This document shows, piece by piece, positions 2,381 through 33,760 of a stretch of 34,829 nt of DNA. A program made the position numbers and the translations under genes. The notes under the pieces were generated by a model, which made no database searches, was not told the DNA's origin, and saw only the letters and a program-made list of their open reading frames with translations. The stretch is taken from positions 1-34,829 of the forward strand of contig JACZSJ010000013.1 of assembly GCA_022574295.1 (NCBI GenBank), in the 5' to 3' direction. Position 1 is the stretch's first letter; each line of letters begins with the position of its first letter. This stretch comes from Pseudomonadota bacterium. GTDB lineage: Bacteria; Pseudomonadota; Gammaproteobacteria; Eutrophobiales; Eutrophobiaceae.

Positions 2381-3151
2381 TTAATTCCAGGCACCTAGAA
2401 ACTCTAGTAAGTGAGGTTGGCCTTCTTCCTGTAACATGTCCCTGACGCGTTCGCATTCTGTTTCATAAGATGTCGCAGATCTTTGCCCGCGCATAAGTTC
2501 ATAACGGAGAAAAACCAGATAGGTATTTAGCACATCGGTCTCGCAATAATTTCGGATCCCCTCAATATTACCCTCGAGGTAGTTATCCCACACCTTGCTA
2601 CCATCCATACCCATCTTGCCAGGGAAACCTAACATACTGGCCACTTCTGTCAGGGGCGCGCTTGCGCGAGGATTGTATCCTGCAATCACATCCATCAAAT
2701 CAGTATGTCTCTCGTGAAAACGGCTGATGTAATTATTCCATTTAAAACTCTGATCATCGCCCCCCGTTTCCCAATAACGTGAAGCATTAATTCCATGCAG
2801 CAATGCACGGTAATGTAAGACCGGCAGATCGAAACCACTGCCATTCCAGGAAACCAGCATGGGTGTATAGCGGTCAATCCCATCAAAAAACCGTTGGATA
2901 ATATCTTCTTCAGGTGAACTAACATCGCCTAATGACCATACGCTTAATTTATCTGATGTCCTGAGGACTGTCGATATGGCGACCACTTTTTGTAGATGAT
3001 GTCGAAGAAATTCACTGCCACCTGTTTGTTGCCTGCGTTGGGCAAACATAGATTCGGCAACCTCTGCATCGGTCAATCCTTGCAGCGAATGAATTTTTCT
3101 TGCGGAATCTGTATCCGGGATGGTTTCAATGTCAAAAACGAGCAGATTCAT
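2381..3151 (-). CDS. Predicted 3'-5' exonuclease, PolB exonuclease-like (DEDD family)
   Basis: A stand-alone 256-residue protein resembling the proofreading exonuclease domain of family B DNA polymerases (Pfam DNA_pol_B_exo2-like). Exo I is FDIETIPD with Asp7 and Glu9. Exo II is SWNGSGFDLPVLHYRAL around residue 104. Exo III is RNYCETDVLNTY around residue 203. These give the DEDD acidic residues that bind two metal ions, so single-strand DNA or RNA 3' trimming is the expected chemistry; the biological substrate is not known to me. It sits between cysM and rlmD, 21 bases after the former and 83 before the latter on the same strand. The start is chosen because the Exo I motif begins at residue 6; no strong ribosome site is visible. 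Confidence 0.85.
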   Translation of the reverse strand: MNLLVFDIETIPDTDSARKIHSLQGLTDAEVAESMFAQRRQQTGGSEFLRHHLQKVVAISTVLRTSDKLSVWSLGDVSSPEEDIIQRFFDGIDRYTPMLVSWNGSGFDLPVLHYRALLHGINASRYWETGGDDQSFKWNNYISRFHERHTDLMDVIAGYNPRASAPLTEVASMLGFPGKMGMDGSKVWDNYLEGNIEGIRNYCETDVLNTYLVFLRYELMRGQRSATSYETECERVRDMLQEEGQPHLLEFLGAWN

Positions 3152-3172
3152 TTTTTTGTCTATTTTCTACAA

Positions 3173-4105
3173 TTATGATTTAAAGACACCAGTGGAAATA
3201 TAACGATCACCCCGGTCGCATATGATGGTAACGATCAGTGCATTTTCAAGCTCCGCTGATAGCTTCAATGCCGCAGCGATGGCACCGCCCGAGGATATCC
3301 CTGCAAAAAGACCTTCTTCCCGGCCCAAAGCAATGGTTGTCTCTTCTGCTTCGTTCTGATCAATATCAATAATTCTATCAACTCTTGCTTCATCATAAAT
3401 CCTTGGTAGATATTCCTTCGGCCAACGTCGAATGCCTGGAATACGAGCGCCGTCAGCTGGTTGCACTCCCACTATCTGGATTTCAGGATCTTGCTCTTTG
3501 AAATAACGAGAAGCCCCCATGATTGTTCCCGTGGTGCCCATAGAACTGACAAAATGTGTAATCTTACCGTGTGTATCACGCCAGATTTCAGGGCCCGTCC
3601 CTTCATAATGAGACAAAGGGTTATCCTCATTTGAAAATTGGTCGAGAACAATCCCCTTTTTGTCTGACTCCATTTCACGTGAAAGATCTATCGCTGCTTC
3701 CATACTACCCTCCTCAGGCGTCAAGATAATCTCCGCACCAAACGCCTTCATAACGACACGTCTTTCTTCACTCATATGCTCGGGCATAATCAGAATCATC
3801 CTGTAGCCTTTAATCGCAGCCGCCATCGCCAGAGCAATGCCAGTATTACCACTGGTCGCTTCTATCAGGGTATCACCAGGCTTAATATCTCCCCGTTCCT
3901 CCGCATGTTTAATCATACTTAACGCGGGCCTGTCTTTGACTGAACCTGCAGGGTTATTGCCTTCCAGCTTGGCCATGATGATGTTGCTGGTGTCGCCTGG
4001 CAGACGTTGAAGTCTGACCAGGGGCGTATTTCCTATATACGCTTCAATGGTCGGAAAATCTTCTTTATTTAACTTCTCAATTTTCGGTTTTCTGGTCACA
4101 CTCAT
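3173..4105 (-). CDS. cysM: Cysteine synthase B (O-acetylserine sulfhydrylase)
   Basis: A PLP-dependent fold-type II enzyme that makes cysteine from O-acetylserine and sulfide (or thiosulfate, typical of CysM). The PLP lysine is Lys57 in GSVKDR, preceded by the substrate loop GNTPLVRLQRLPG. The phosphate/asparagine loop is EATSGNTGIALAMA, the glycine loop is GTTGTIMGASRYF, and GISSGGA lies near the C-terminus. GIRRWPKEYLPRIYD around residue 225 is characteristic of CysM rather than CysK, and 310 residues is the right length. About 14 extra residues precede the usual start, but only the annotated ATG is available. The gene begins 6 bases after rimI, so the two are probably co-transcribed and coupled. 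Confidence 0.95.
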   Translation of the reverse strand: MSVTRKPKIEKLNKEDFPTIEAYIGNTPLVRLQRLPGDTSNIIMAKLEGNNPAGSVKDRPALSMIKHAEERGDIKPGDTLIEATSGNTGIALAMAAAIKGYRMILIMPEHMSEERRVVMKAFGAEIILTPEEGSMEAAIDLSREMESDKKGIVLDQFSNEDNPLSHYEGTGPEIWRDTHGKITHFVSSMGTTGTIMGASRYFKEQDPEIQIVGVQPADGARIPGIRRWPKEYLPRIYDEARVDRIIDIDQNEAEETTIALGREEGLFAGISSGGAIAAALKLSAELENALIVTIICDRGDRYISTGVFKS

Positions 4106-5346: not shown

Positions 5347-6882
5347 TCAAACTTGGGGGTGTGCCCGTTCAGTCTGTTCCTGAGCTTTGTTCAAGGCGTT
5401 GATATAAGCCTTTGCAGAAGCAATGATAATATCCGTATCTGCACCTTGACCATTGATCGCCCTGCCATCCTTATCAACTCTGACAGTGACCTCGCCTTGC
5501 GAATCTGTTCCAGTCGTAATATTACTCACCGAGTAAAGTTCCAGTTTACAGCCACTATCCACAACCAACTCTATGGCCTTAAAAGTTGCATCGACCGGCC
5601 CACTTCCGTCAGAGGTGGCATGTTTCTCCTCACCATCAATCGACAAGGTCACTTTTGCGACAGGAATTTCACCTGTTTCTGAGGTTACTTTCATGGAGAC
5701 GAGTTTGATCCGCTCCATGGTGGCTTCATGAAAGGTGTCAGTGACCAATGCCTGTAAATCCTCATCGAAGATCTCATGTTTCTTGTCTGCAAGCTCTTTA
5801 AAGCGATTGAACGTTGCATTCAAATCTTCTTCACGTTCAAATTCGACCCCCAATTCAGATAATCTGGATTTAAACGCATTACGACCTGAATGCTTACCCA
5901 AGACCATTCTATTGGCATGCCAGCCGACATCTTCAGCTCGCATGATTTCGTAGGTCTCGCGATTTTTGAGTACGCCATCCTGATGTATGCCCGCTTCATG
6001 GGCAAAGGCATTCGCACCAACAATGGCCTTATTTGGTTGCACGGGAAAACCTGTCACACTTGAAACCAGACGTGAACAGTTCAAAATCTGTGTGGTATCC
6101 AAAGTCGTATCACAAGGAAACACATCCTGACGAGTGCGCACAGTCATGACAACTTCTTCCAATGATGCGTTCCCTGCACGCTCGCCCAGACCATTAATCG
6201 TACATTCTACCTGTCTGGCACCGTTCATGACTGCTGCCAGTGAATTACCCACAGCCAATCCTAAATCATTATGGCAATGCACCGAGAATATTGCCTTGTC
6301 AGAATTTGGTATTCTTTCAATCAATTGTTTGAGCAATTCACCAAATTGCTGCGGCAAATTGTAACCCACCGTATCCGGGATATTTACTGTGGTCGCTCCC
6401 GCATCAATGACGGCCTCCAGTACACGACATAAAAAATCAAGCTCTGATCGACCTGCATCTTCAGGCGAAAATTCAACATTGTCCGTGTAGTTACGTGCAC
6501 GTTTGACAGCATGCACCGCCTGCTCCACAACCTGATCTGGCGTCATGTGCAATTTCTCCTTCATATGAATAGGAGATGTCGCAAGAAAGGTATGGATCCT
6601 TGATGATCTGGCTGGTTTTAAGGCAGCCGCTGCCCGATCGATATCTTTATCTAGTGCACGTGCCAGTCCGCAAACCGTACTGTCCTGAATTACCTCTGCG
6701 ACCTGATATACGGCCTCGAAATCACCGGGGCTGGCGATGGGGAAACCAGCCTCAATAATATCCACTTTCATGCGCTCAAGCGCCCTGGCGATACGAACTT
6801 TTTCATCCTTGGTCATTGACGCACCGGGACTTTGTTCACCGTCACGAAGTGTTGTATCAAATATTATTAATTTGTCTTGCAT
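5347..6882 (-). CDS. leuA: 2-isopropylmalate synthase
   Basis: First committed enzyme of leucine synthesis, condensing acetyl-CoA with 2-oxoisovalerate. The TIM-barrel motif [15 protein letters not shown] starts at residue 8, with Asp9 and Arg13/Asp14 at the catalytic site. [14 protein letters not shown] gives the metal-binding His-x-His, and [15 protein letters not shown] follows. The last ~120 residues form the LeuA dimer/allosteric domain ([15 protein letters not shown] through to [15 protein letters not shown]), so leucine feedback inhibition is expected. Length 511 is normal. GGAG/CAGGA lies just ahead of the ATG. It is the last gene of the ilv-psd-pss-leuA run but has 284 bases in front, so it may also have its own promoter. 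Confidence 0.97.
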
Positions 6883-7166: not shown

Positions 7167-7952
7167 TCAACTTTGCTTGTCGGAAGATTCCTGAAGTTTT
7201 CTCGCTGCACGGTGCTTGCGGATAGACAGGAGTGTCATCACCGGACCCGATATGGCATAAACCAGGGCAATAGAAAACAATACCAGCGGTGGCTCACTGG
7301 CAATAAATACGAACAATAATACCAGCAATAATATCCTGACAAATGGGACACGGCCCTTAAAATCTATTTGCTTGAGGCTGTGAAACCGAATATTACTGAC
7401 CATCAATATTCCAGCGATCACCGTAAGTAGAAATGCGCAGATCGCCAGATTTTCGACATCTACATACTCCTGTGTTTCGCCCAGCCAAATCATCCCCGCG
7501 AGCAAGGCAGCAGCAGCAGGACTTGGTAAACCCTGAAAAAACCGCTTGTCCTCACTGGCAGCCTGGGTATTGAATCGTGCAAGTCTGAGTGCAGTTGAAG
7601 CTGTGTAAACAAAAGCCGCAAGCCAACCTAGTTTACCCATCCCGGACAAGACCCACTGATACATGATCAAAGAAGGTGCCAAACCGAATGAAATCATATC
7701 GGACAGACTGTCATACTCAACGCCAAAGTCGGATTGCGTGTTTGTTAAACGCGCAATCCGTCCATCCATACCATCCATCACCATGGCAATAAAAATAGCG
7801 ATGGCAGCACTTTCAAATTGTGAATTCATGGCTGAGACAATGCCGTAGAAACCAGCGAACAGGCCTGCCGTGGTAAACAGATTAGGAAGAAGATAAATAC
7901 CGCGACGCCGTTTCAAACTATTTCTGCCCTGGTTCCCAATGTTAACAGTCAA
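7167..7952 (-). CDS. pssA: CDP-diacylglycerol-serine O-phosphatidyltransferase
   Basis: Makes phosphatidylserine from CDP-diacylglycerol and L-serine at the inner membrane. The CDP-alcohol phosphatidyltransferase signature is complete: DGMDGRIARLTNTQSDFGVEYDSLSD around residues 59-84, with the conserved Asp residues of D-G-x2-A-R-x8-G-x3-D-x3-D. Several hydrophobic segments follow (TAGLFAGFYGIVSAM, WLAAFVYTASTALRLARF, ICAFLLTVIAGILMV, ILLLVLLFVFIA), consistent with a multi-pass protein. At 261 residues it fits the Gram-positive/alpha-type PssA group also common in proteobacteria. The only workable start is TTG, 20 bases after the psd stop. Two nearby ATG codons are out of frame, and one leads to a stop within six codons. 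Confidence 0.93.
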   Translation of the reverse strand: MTVNIGNQGRNSLKRRRGIYLLPNLFTTAGLFAGFYGIVSAMNSQFESAAIAIFIAMVMDGMDGRIARLTNTQSDFGVEYDSLSDMISFGLAPSLIMYQWVLSGMGKLGWLAAFVYTASTALRLARFNTQAASEDKRFFQGLPSPAAAALLAGMIWLGETQEYVDVENLAICAFLLTVIAGILMVSNIRFHSLKQIDFKGRVPFVRILLLVLLFVFIASEPPLVLFSIALVYAISGPVMTLLSIRKHRAARKLQESSDKQS

Positions 7953-7972: not shown

Positions 7973-8683
7973 CTAAGCAGCATCTCCAGCAACGGCATTT
8001 TTCCCATGCGGGTTCTTGTCATTAATCATACTCACTGAGCTCCCATGAACAAGGTATGCAAGAACATCCTCACCTGAAGTAATCGTTTGACCGGGTTCAA
8101 CCTCCAGTTTTGAATTTTCAGGAATGTATATATCAACTGTGCCACCAAAATATAAATATCCACACCTTTGTCCCTGACCAAGCCGCTCACCAGACTGGAT
8201 GTAGATTCGAAAACAGGCCGCAGCACAAGGACTTAATCTGAATACAGTCACGATATCATCACCTTCATCCGTTCTAATCCAGAAAGCGAATTTACGTTGT
8301 CCATTTTCTTCCTTGCATTTTTCTGACCACTGCTCCATTACCTTACCTTCAACGGGACTACGCAGGGAGTATACATCCAGGCTAGACATCTTTATCCTGA
8401 TTCTTTTCGCCTGTCGATTGATCCCCTGTTGATTAAGCCAGGGATCATCCACTTCATCTATTAGAATAACCCTTCCTTCTACCGGGCTGAGAATGGCAAG
8501 CGGTAAAGATGGAATTGTTCGCTGCGGATCCCTTAATAGAAATAGAAAAAAACAAAAAATAATTGCCAGAACGAACGATACGATGCTGCTAACAAAATAA
8601 AAAGTCAGCAAAATCAACCCGGCCAGCACAAACAAAAGTAACCAACCTTCTTTGGCAATGAATGGATAACGATTACTGGGCAC
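7973..8683 (-). CDS. psd: Phosphatidylserine decarboxylase homologue lacking the processing triad
   Basis: By position (directly before pssA) and architecture this is the short-form Psd: two N-terminal membrane segments (about residues 13-50), FFLFLLRDPQR, then the decarboxylase domain. In active short-form enzymes three motifs form the self-cleavage triad: SPADG (Asp), HVNR (His) and FGS (Ser that becomes the pyruvoyl group). Here they read SPVEG (Glu69), VYSLRSP (Tyr105 at the His position) and YFGGT (Gly181 at the Ser position). All three are substituted, while the fold-defining surroundings, including VDIYIPENSKLEVEPGQTITSGEDVLAYL, are kept and the frame is intact. It starts at GTG with CAGG upstream. 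It is either inactive as a decarboxylase, or processed differently (a C-terminal HGSS at 213-216 exists). The symbol indicates homology, not proven activity. Confidence 0.8.
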   Translation of the reverse strand: MPSNRYPFIAKEGWLLLFVLAGLILLTFYFVSSIVSFVLAIIFCFFLFLLRDPQRTIPSLPLAILSPVEGRVILIDEVDDPWLNQQGINRQAKRIRIKMSSLDVYSLRSPVEGKVMEQWSEKCKEENGQRKFAFWIRTDEGDDIVTVFRLSPCAAACFRIYIQSGERLGQGQRCGYLYFGGTVDIYIPENSKLEVEPGQTITSGEDVLAYLVHGSSVSMINDKNPHGKNAVAGDAA

Positions 8684-8775: not shown

Positions 8776-9786
<1,011 letters not shown>

Positions 9787-31739: not shown

Positions 31740-33572
31740 CTAAGGCACTATCTTTATTCTCTGAATTTTGTGACTAATCACATCATCATACAACTTAGCT
31801 ATATCCTTATCTTTAGGAAATTGCTTATGGGCGATCTCCATATGTTTCAACATTAATGGATAATCACCAATATCACCATATAATTTGGCAAGTATAAGAC
31901 TCAGTTTACCTTTTGAATTGTTTGACTGTAAAAATCGATTGCGTAATAAAGCATCTGCAAAGACAATTGATCTTTTCGGATCTGACCAGTTATAAGTATC
32001 TGCATTACTAAGATATAGAGTAAACTCGTTCAGAATGTCTGGATGAACTCTCTGGCTTGCAAACGCATCTTCCATTTCTCGATAAAATTCTTCGGATAAA
32101 CCTTGATTTGTAATATGTTTAGTAATCAGTAGATTGAAATAGTGATTTGCAAAAGGTCTTATGGTATGTTTTATGTTTTGCAAAACAATTCCAGCCTCCG
32201 CAAATTTTCCGACCTTCATTAACTCTTTAGCCAGTTTATCATTTGCACGATAAGACCGGGGATGATGTCTGATTTCAGTTTCTATATGCTCCCCAGCAGT
32301 AGACCATTGATGATTTCTTATTAAGGTCAGTGTCATTAACAAAATCAATATGAATATACCGATTAATCTAAAAGCTGGTCGCAATTTTTCCTGACGTTGA
32401 TACAGCACCAATACACACCATGACATACCCATTATCACCCCGATACCAGGCAAATAATTCCGGTGCTCAAAGGCGATTTCAAGAGAAAGAAAACTGGATT
32501 CTATGATATGACCCACAAGAAACCACAATATGGAAAAACTCAATATTGGCACGCGATATCGCAAAATAATTGCAATCAGAAATACAGCACCCCATGCAAT
32601 AGTACTTAACAACGTGCTCACTGGATGCAACCATCCTGTTGATAATGAAAAATCATCTAGATATAAACCCATTCGGGCAAGATCGGGTAATAGCAAACTA
32701 TGAACGTAAGTCCAGAGCACTCGTGATTCGGTCATTAACCGTTGTCCCGGCGTAAAATCCCGCCCATGATATGAGCCCAAAATAAAGTCAGGATTGCTTA
32801 ATAAATACACCACGGTAGCAAAGATAGACAGAACAAGTATCTGATGGAGTCTGCGTAATAGTGCACTCATTGCGCCAAAGCGAAACAACGTGATTTCGGC
32901 AACAAGACAAAGCAGCGGTAAAATAACTGCATTTTCCTTACTTAGCATGCCTAATGGCCAACAAATAAATAAACCTGTAAAAAGTGCCAGATGCCCTGTT
33001 GCTTGGGTATTTTCAAATTGAGACAATCTGCATCTTAAATATGCAGCAAATCCCAACAAGGTAAATAGTGCTGATAATTGTGCCATCCGTTGAACCGAGT
33101 AAAGAACAGTACTGACATTAAGGGGGTGGATTACCCAAATTACGGCTGTTAACAGGGCAATCCAACGACCATATTCTGGTTTAACTGGATGATAGATGTT
33201 GTTGTCAAGTAGTCTGTCCGCACGAAATATCCAGCTCAGAATCAGGAAGATAGTCCAGGCGGTAAACAGATGGATGAGCAGATTTACAAGTTTAAAGCCA
33301 TATGGTTCAAGACCACCGATGAAATAGTTCATTGCAAAACTCAGCTTTGCAACAGGGCGGGATGATAATATATGTGTCCGCCCATCGGGGCCAATGAATA
33401 ACTGCGACAGATTTTCGAACGAGAAGCTTTCGACATGTATCTGCTTGTTTTCGACGATACTTCCATAATCATCGAGAACAAAGCTACCATCAAGTCCTGG
33501 CAGATAAATAAGGTAGGTGATTAAACAAATAGATGAAAAAAGAACGAGGTCTGTAATCCGTTGTCTATGCAT
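31740..33572 (-). CDS. TMTC/GT-C-like multi-pass membrane protein with helical (TPR-like) C-terminus
   Basis: A 610-residue protein. About ten hydrophobic segments fill residues 5-430. The first periplasmic loop has DGSFVLDDYGSIVEN, the acidic pair expected of GT-C transferases that use lipid-linked sugars. GRTHILSSRPVAKLSFAMNYF, IHPLNVSTVLYSVQRMAQLSALFTLLGF, LSKENAVILPLLCLVAE and EHRNYLPGIGV are recurrent in a proteobacterial family I know as TMTC-like TPR proteins. The last ~180 residues are helical repeats consistent with degenerate TPRs (KLAKELMKVGKFAEAGIVLQNI). I start at the ATG at 33572 with AGAAGG upstream, not the TTG 24 codons earlier. Glycan transfer to protein or polymer is an inference. 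Confidence 0.8.
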   Translation of the reverse strand: MHRQRITDLVLFSSICLITYLIYLPGLDGSFVLDDYGSIVENKQIHVESFSFENLSQLFIGPDGRTHILSSRPVAKLSFAMNYFIGGLEPYGFKLVNLLIHLFTAWTIFLILSWIFRADRLLDNNIYHPVKPEYGRWIALLTAVIWVIHPLNVSTVLYSVQRMAQLSALFTLLGFAAYLRCRLSQFENTQATGHLALFTGLFICWPLGMLSKENAVILPLLCLVAEITLFRFGAMSALLRRLHQILVLSIFATVVYLLSNPDFILGSYHGRDFTPGQRLMTESRVLWTYVHSLLLPDLARMGLYLDDFSLSTGWLHPVSTLLSTIAWGAVFLIAIILRYRVPILSFSILWFLVGHIIESSFLSLEIAFEHRNYLPGIGVIMGMSWCVLVLYQRQEKLRPAFRLIGIFILILLMTLTLIRNHQWSTAGEHIETEIRHHPRSYRANDKLAKELMKVGKFAEAGIVLQNIKHTIRPFANHYFNLLITKHITNQGLSEEFYREMEDAFASQRVHPDILNEFTLYLSNADTYNWSDPKRSIVFADALLRNRFLQSNNSKGKLSLILAKLYGDIGDYPLMLKHMEIAHKQFPKDKDIAKLYDDVISHKIQRIKIVP

Positions 33573-33610
33573 TAATGATGTACCTTCTGTTTGGATTAAT
33601 ATTAATACAT

Positions 33611-33628
33611 GCCTGTAAGGATACAGGC
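33611..33628. other. 7-bp hairpin upstream of the TMTC-like gene
   Basis: GCCTGTA, loop AGGA, TACAGGC form a perfect stem 39 bases ahead of the chosen start codon. On the minus (gene) strand the downstream bases are AT-rich without a T-run, so terminator function is unlikely; a leader hairpin or operator is possible. Confidence 0.3.
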
Positions 33629-33760
33629 CTCTAAAATCTGGCAAGGCAGCAAACCCAGAAATAATTAATGCAATGTTAGAACATATTTCCTGATGTAGTT
33701 AGTAATTCATCAAAAGATGAGAGCGAAGGTTTTTATATATTAAAATCCAATTTTACATAA

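Follow-up and report, generated by a model that had tools for sequence, protein, structure and literature searches.

A conserved phosphatidylserine decarboxylase homologue without its self-processing residues between ilvC and pssA in Gammaproteobacteria

The gene psd* (Table 1) encodes a homologue of short-form phosphatidylserine decarboxylase (Psd) in which all three self-processing residues are replaced, and it belongs to what is almost certainly a dead, conserved protein family of single origin. The family descends from an active short-form Psd, and its His and Ser were lost once, in an ancestor within the Gammaproteobacteria. To our knowledge it is still unsettled how bacteria set the phosphatidylethanolamine (PE) fraction of the membrane and keep phosphatidylserine (PS) scarce, and the conserved dead Psd encoded between ilvC and pssA offers a candidate for a missing regulator of this balance. 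This ancient pseudoenzyme family, annotated as psd, appears to be undescribed; no description of a Psd pseudoenzyme was found in the literature searched, which did not extend to subscription papers, where an earlier mention is possible. The gene was studied within a stretch of 34,829 nucleotides, referred to here as the window.

Table 1. Position of psd*, its altered and signature residues and its neighbours in the window
Feature	Coordinates	Strand	Remarks
leuA, downstream neighbour	5347..6882	-	
pssA, type II CDP-diacylglycerol--serine O-phosphatidyltransferase	7167..7952	-	TIGR00473 125.6 bits, cut-off 107
psd*, short-form Psd homologue, catalytically dead	7973..8683	-	236 aa, GTG start
Gly181, replacing the cleavage-site Ser that is turned into pyruvoyl	8141..8143	-	codon GGC (8143-8141), alignment
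GERLGQGQRCG motif (165-175), holding R167 and G169	8159..8191	-	R167 111/111, G169 99%, Q170 92%
D139-E140-G-D142 acidic loop, signature	8258..8269	-	100/100/99% in dead clade
Glu112, signature	8348..8350	-	111/111 in dead clade, 3/20 elsewhere
Tyr105, replacing the catalytic His (E. coli His144)	8369..8371	-	codon TAC (8371-8369), alignment
Glu69, replacing the Asp of SPADG	8477..8479	-	codon GAA (8479-8477), alignment
Two hydrophobic helices, predicted membrane anchor	8534..8653	-	residues 11-30 and 33-50, AlphaFold2 model
ilvC, upstream neighbour of psd*	8776..9780	-	neighbour conserved in nearly all loci

Loss of the processing residues

The replacement of Asp, His and Ser by Glu69, Tyr105 and Gly181 had been proposed in a first-pass annotation of the sequence and is borne out by the codons and by alignment with 18 catalytic short forms, in which the three columns are invariant. 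The nearest relative, from an independent MAG (L033, 78% identity), has Glu, Phe and Gly at the same positions. The cleavage site of the window protein reads Gly180-Gly181-Thr182 and holds no Ser. A different Ser at the cleavage site and sequencing error at the triad codons had been named among the grounds for doubting the first-pass reading. The alignment shows no such Ser in the window protein, and a migrated nucleophile can be ruled out, as neither Ser, Thr nor Cys is conserved at or beside the cleavage site in the relatives. Three sequencing errors, or a pseudogene, are excluded by the independent relative together with a dN/dS of 0.11 and the deep conservation of the gene.

Matching residues by their spacing to the conserved Pro110 places Tyr105 at E. 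coli His144 and Asp103 at Asp142, and Gly181 corresponds to Ser254. The position of E. coli Asp90 is taken by Glu69, but an Asp is present at that of Asp142. In the E. coli enzyme the pyruvoyl group is formed from Ser254, mutants of His144 neither decarboxylate PS nor make PE, and Asp90 and Asp142 are interchangeable in maturation (PMC7952604). What decides the matter is thus the absence of Ser and His and not that of Asp, since Asp142 can stand in for Asp90 while His144 mutants do not decarboxylate PS. The description of the remaining protein as intact was too generous, as psd* has lost further positions at which the active forms do not vary, namely F98, N100, N107, the ENERN block at 127-132, Q148-A150-G151-L152 and R155-R156.

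Homology to Psd is nevertheless clear from the Pfam match (PF02666, 62.5 bits against a cut-off of 22). With short-form Psd (PRK05305 / NF003678-NF003685, PF02666) psd* shares homology from end to end, a pair of hydrophobic helices at the N-terminus and its place before pssA; unlike short-form Psd, it lacks the triad His and Ser and the substrate-contact blocks, carries a new signature and scores far under the cut-offs. It falls below the threshold of every curated short-form equivalog model (NCBIfam), the best being NF003680 with 129 against 262 bits. The N-terminus, (M)PSNRYPFIA, is common to the relatives. As a Psd homologue that fails the features defining the active enzyme, psd* should not be filed as a decarboxylase, and many other genes named psd by homology are probably not decarboxylases either.

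An AlphaFold2 model of psd* (pLDDT 74), built from an alignment that is shallow because it comprises the window protein and the fetched related loci, predicts a beta domain along with the two hydrophobic helices of the N-terminus. Foldseek searches with this model, to be read with the same confidence and alignment depth in mind, gave EIIA-Glc as the best match in the PDB and placed an annotated viral Psd second in a viral library. The model of an active control (L036, pLDDT 84) had as its best match PsiD, which we take to be a member of the Psd family. The predicted fold of psd* is consistent with a barrel derived from Psd. A sequence search of the PDB with the window protein alone gave no match, and a profile search returned weak matches, E. 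coli Psd among them (E=2).

Extent, descent and signature of the dead clade

A profile built from 24 relatives was used to search 369 genomes sampled across the Gammaproteobacteria and found matches in 125 of them. Alignment of 131 short-form sequences separated 18 with the full Asp-His-Ser triad, 2 that lack the Asp (Ser-His-Ser) and 111 that are broken. His and Ser occur together in none of the 111, and the window protein has neither. The His column is H in 20/20 non-broken short forms and Y or F in 95/111 broken ones; the Ser column is S in 20/20 and in 14/111 respectively, never alongside His in the latter, and is Gly, Ala or Arg in 86/111. The triad Asp is kept in 84 members of the dead clade and was lost chiefly in the window's own family. 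The first-pass annotation had raised the question whether a clade shares Glu, Tyr and Gly. A clade of such proteins exists, but it is defined by the loss of His and Ser, and the exact triplet is no marker of it.

In a tree calculated without the Asp, His and Ser columns the 111 broken sequences form one clade (SH-aLRT 100). A more careful tree, which comprised 49 broken sequences among a total of 93 and from which both the catalytic and the signature columns were removed, recovers the dead clade at 100/100 with a bootstrap not yet fully settled. The window protein lies inside the supported dead clade in both trees. Three catalytic-type sequences (L104, L108 and L122) join the dead clade at 100/100 in the 93-sequence tree and are its closest relatives. 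Beyond the Gammaproteobacteria, the 13 highest-ranking matches from the sample of the phylum (L208-L220) all have Asp-His-Ser and are without the signature described below.

Three of the non-broken sequences depart from the usual pattern. L034 (6001-6648) and L035 (5479-6144) are the Ser-His-Ser short forms, in which Ser replaces the Asp of SPADG and His and Ser are retained. In Mesosutterella porci (L037, 5953-6894) the C-terminus of a short-form Psd of the active type is extended by a long tail, some 90 residues rich in Ala, Glu and Pro.

The dead clade has a signature of its own, comprising E112, D139, E140, D142, R167 and G169, which is complete in 109/111 members, rare elsewhere and present in full in the window protein. 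Among the 20 non-broken sequences two have all six residues, L104 and L108, which also have the full triad and are the sole Psd found in their own genomes; L122 has four of the six. Because the closest active relatives carry the signature fully or partly, it arose before catalysis was lost, and it is what persisted afterwards. This distribution of characters suggests that a second, non-catalytic function probably preceded the loss of catalysis. The three sequences would then represent an active intermediate that is still living, and the family would be a clear example from nature of a protein that gained its second function before it lost catalysis.

Locus, retention and the second decarboxylase

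In nearly all fetched loci the gene order is ilvH-ilvC-psd*-pssA, usually followed by leuA, and in the window, too, psd* has ilvC on one side and a type II pssA on the other. Active short forms of the class are found at this place in the operon, before pssA, as well. In many relatives the site is empty: ilvC lies directly before pssA and then leuA, and psd* is missing. In one genome (G202; locus L155, G202:C10:97900-103900, psd* at 2756-3382) psd* is all that is left of the ilv-pssA-leuA operon between uracil-DNA glycosylase/rimI and proS, which flank the operon in the window also; ilvB, ilvH, ilvC, pssA and leuA have gone from the site and pssA is on another contig. In two further genomes (G111 and G238) psd* is still behind ilvC and pssA has been relocated. 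Since psd* persists where the operon or pssA has left, it is kept for itself and not through linkage alone, and since many lineages have lost it, it must be of use without being indispensable.

Comparison of the window with L033 gave a dN of 0.12 and a dS of about 1.1 for psd*, hence a dN/dS of about 0.11, with 0.055 for pssA; both ratios are approximate as dS is near saturation. Together with the invariant new residues this agrees with the earlier proposal that the gene is retained by purifying selection without its triad. Apparent fusions of 570 aa in three loci proved on inspection to be long open frames that run into ilvC in another frame. In two loci of one genus (L138 and L149, from G386 and G179) the pssA 3' of psd* is split over two open frames, by either a frameshift or a real break.

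The pssA adjoining psd* is the only strong PS synthase found in the genome, and by inspection its catalytic CDP-alcohol phosphatidyltransferase motif is intact (DGMDGRIAR...GVEYDSLSD). Another PF02666 gene of the genome, at G000:C115 (198 bits), encodes a long form of 295 residues that keeps CPVDG, DYHRIHMP and FNMGSTV and with them the Asp, the His and the cleavage site GST. This product is a long-form Psd like that of E. coli (PDB 7CNW series) and falls in the same Pfam family as psd*; unlike psd*, it keeps these features and presumably makes PE. To judge from these motifs, the long form is very likely the PE-making enzyme of the genome. It had been suggested that the cell must have a second Psd or lack PE; the first alternative holds, and PE synthesis need not be missing because the second Psd is intact.

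The same pairing recurs across the class. Of the matching genomes in the class sample 110 were classified, and another Psd is present in 90/94 of those with a broken copy compared with 0/16 of those with an intact copy (Fisher p 7e-16, with no correction for phylogeny; the dead copies are one clade, so that this amounts to about one evolutionary event). The likely history is that an active short form stood alone, a long form was gained, and the short form then either died and was kept or was deleted. A dead copy and a type II PssA with no catalytic Psd found were seen in G252 and G350, which are of the same genus and concordant, and in G226, G275 and G009 (100% complete); here PE may be made otherwise or be absent, or the assemblies may miss a gene.

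Candidate functions of psd*

The explanation that we favour overall, and to which we give about even chances, is that psd* is a pseudoenzyme whose second function came first and which acts as a sensor or scaffold at the step from PssA to Psd. In the active short-form ancestor, E112, D139-E140-x-D142 and R167-x-G would already have served a second function, a non-catalytic one. Once a long-form Psd had taken over decarboxylation, the short form would have been freed from catalysis and retained the second function only. Today psd* might be a membrane-anchored protein that senses phospholipid headgroups or serves as a scaffold, linking the synthesis of PS by PssA with its decarboxylation by the long form, with an ancestral contact to PssA retained. 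We can propose only tentatively that an ancient pseudoenzyme family with a control or scaffold function that arose in the active enzyme and outlived catalysis now controls the PS-to-PE step; if true, bacteria have a dedicated controller of this step.

A role of psd* with PssA or in the handling of PS, which is suggested by ancestry, predicted membrane anchoring, operon context and retention, is likewise somewhat short of an even bet. Operon position is weak evidence for PssA as partner because it was inherited from the active ancestor. Partial covariation of rates is 0.46 between psd* and pssA and 0.47 between psd* and leuA, so there is no excess for pssA. Two PssA residues, K199 and N71, separate genomes with psd* from those without it inside the family, but not class-wide, and type II PssA is itself too widespread to tell genomes apart, being present in 341/369. 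The loss of the substrate-contact blocks speaks against simple binding of PS in the old mode. The first-pass annotation had suggested a new role as a PS-binding protein, a regulator of PssA or another chemistry; retention without the triad fits a new role, but no result singles out PS binding or regulation of PssA.

The strongest rival, which we consider unlikely but worth serious thought, is that the invariant acidic cluster of E112, D139, E140 and D142 with R167 and H213 binds a metal, a nucleotide or a lipid headgroup, and that psd* serves as a lipid carrier or a novel enzyme with no part in PS decarboxylation. Charged residues invariant in the clade do lie in three loops, the modelled fold is nearest to duplicated-hybrid-motif proteins (EIIA-Glc) and weakly resembles M23-like metallopeptidase folds, and psd* persists where pssA has moved away; against this, psd* has no known catalytic motif.

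In kind psd* resembles dead paralogues known among pyruvoyl enzymes. The AdoMetDC prozyme of trypanosomes is, like psd*, a dead paralogue in a pyruvoyl-decarboxylase family that is retained beside the active enzyme, but it belongs to a different family, and the mechanism by which the prozyme activates is proven, whereas any partner of psd* is proposed only (PMC5201418). By this precedent psd* would form a mixed oligomer with the long-form Psd and activate or stabilise it, which is improbable. Dead copies are almost confined to genomes with a long form and E. coli Psd is a dimer of heterodimers (PMC7952604), but in the many genomes whose site is empty the long form does its work with no psd* present. 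The signature also arose where no long form was found (L104 and L108), so that binding to one cannot be what it evolved for. Its being older than the long form in the closest active relatives makes a prozyme-like activator less likely than a sensor or scaffold between PssA and Psd. A comparison of another kind is offered by PanZ, which we take to be an acetyltransferase-fold protein and which, unlike psd*, is no dead paralogue of its enzyme PanD. As maturation factor and CoA-dependent regulator of PanD, PanZ/PanM is an accessory controller of a gammaproteobacterial pyruvoyl decarboxylase (PMC4410942, PMC3496974).

Slow decay of a functionless, drifting remnant held by its place in the operon is largely refuted and very improbable: psd* evolves fast relative to its neighbours, has been lost repeatedly and is variable at the dead catalytic positions, but the low dN/dS, residues invariant across about 50 family codes, a single ancient death and retention after the surrounding operon was dismantled all oppose it. 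That psd* is still a decarboxylase, matured by another residue or mechanism, is scarcely credible, for although E. coli Psd can do without either Asp90 or His147 and still cleaves, if slowly, when His144 is missing (PMC7952604) and Thr182 adjoins Gly181 in the window protein, there is no Ser at the scissile position, Thr182 is found in 9/111 only, E. coli H144 mutants cannot decarboxylate PS (PMC7952604) and the genome has an intact long form.

Elsewhere in the window, an open frame of 634 aa with a TTG start (31740-33644, minus strand) gave no Pfam match at 1e-5; it lies near polysaccharide-type genes encoding an asparagine synthase, a flippase and a glycosyltransferase.
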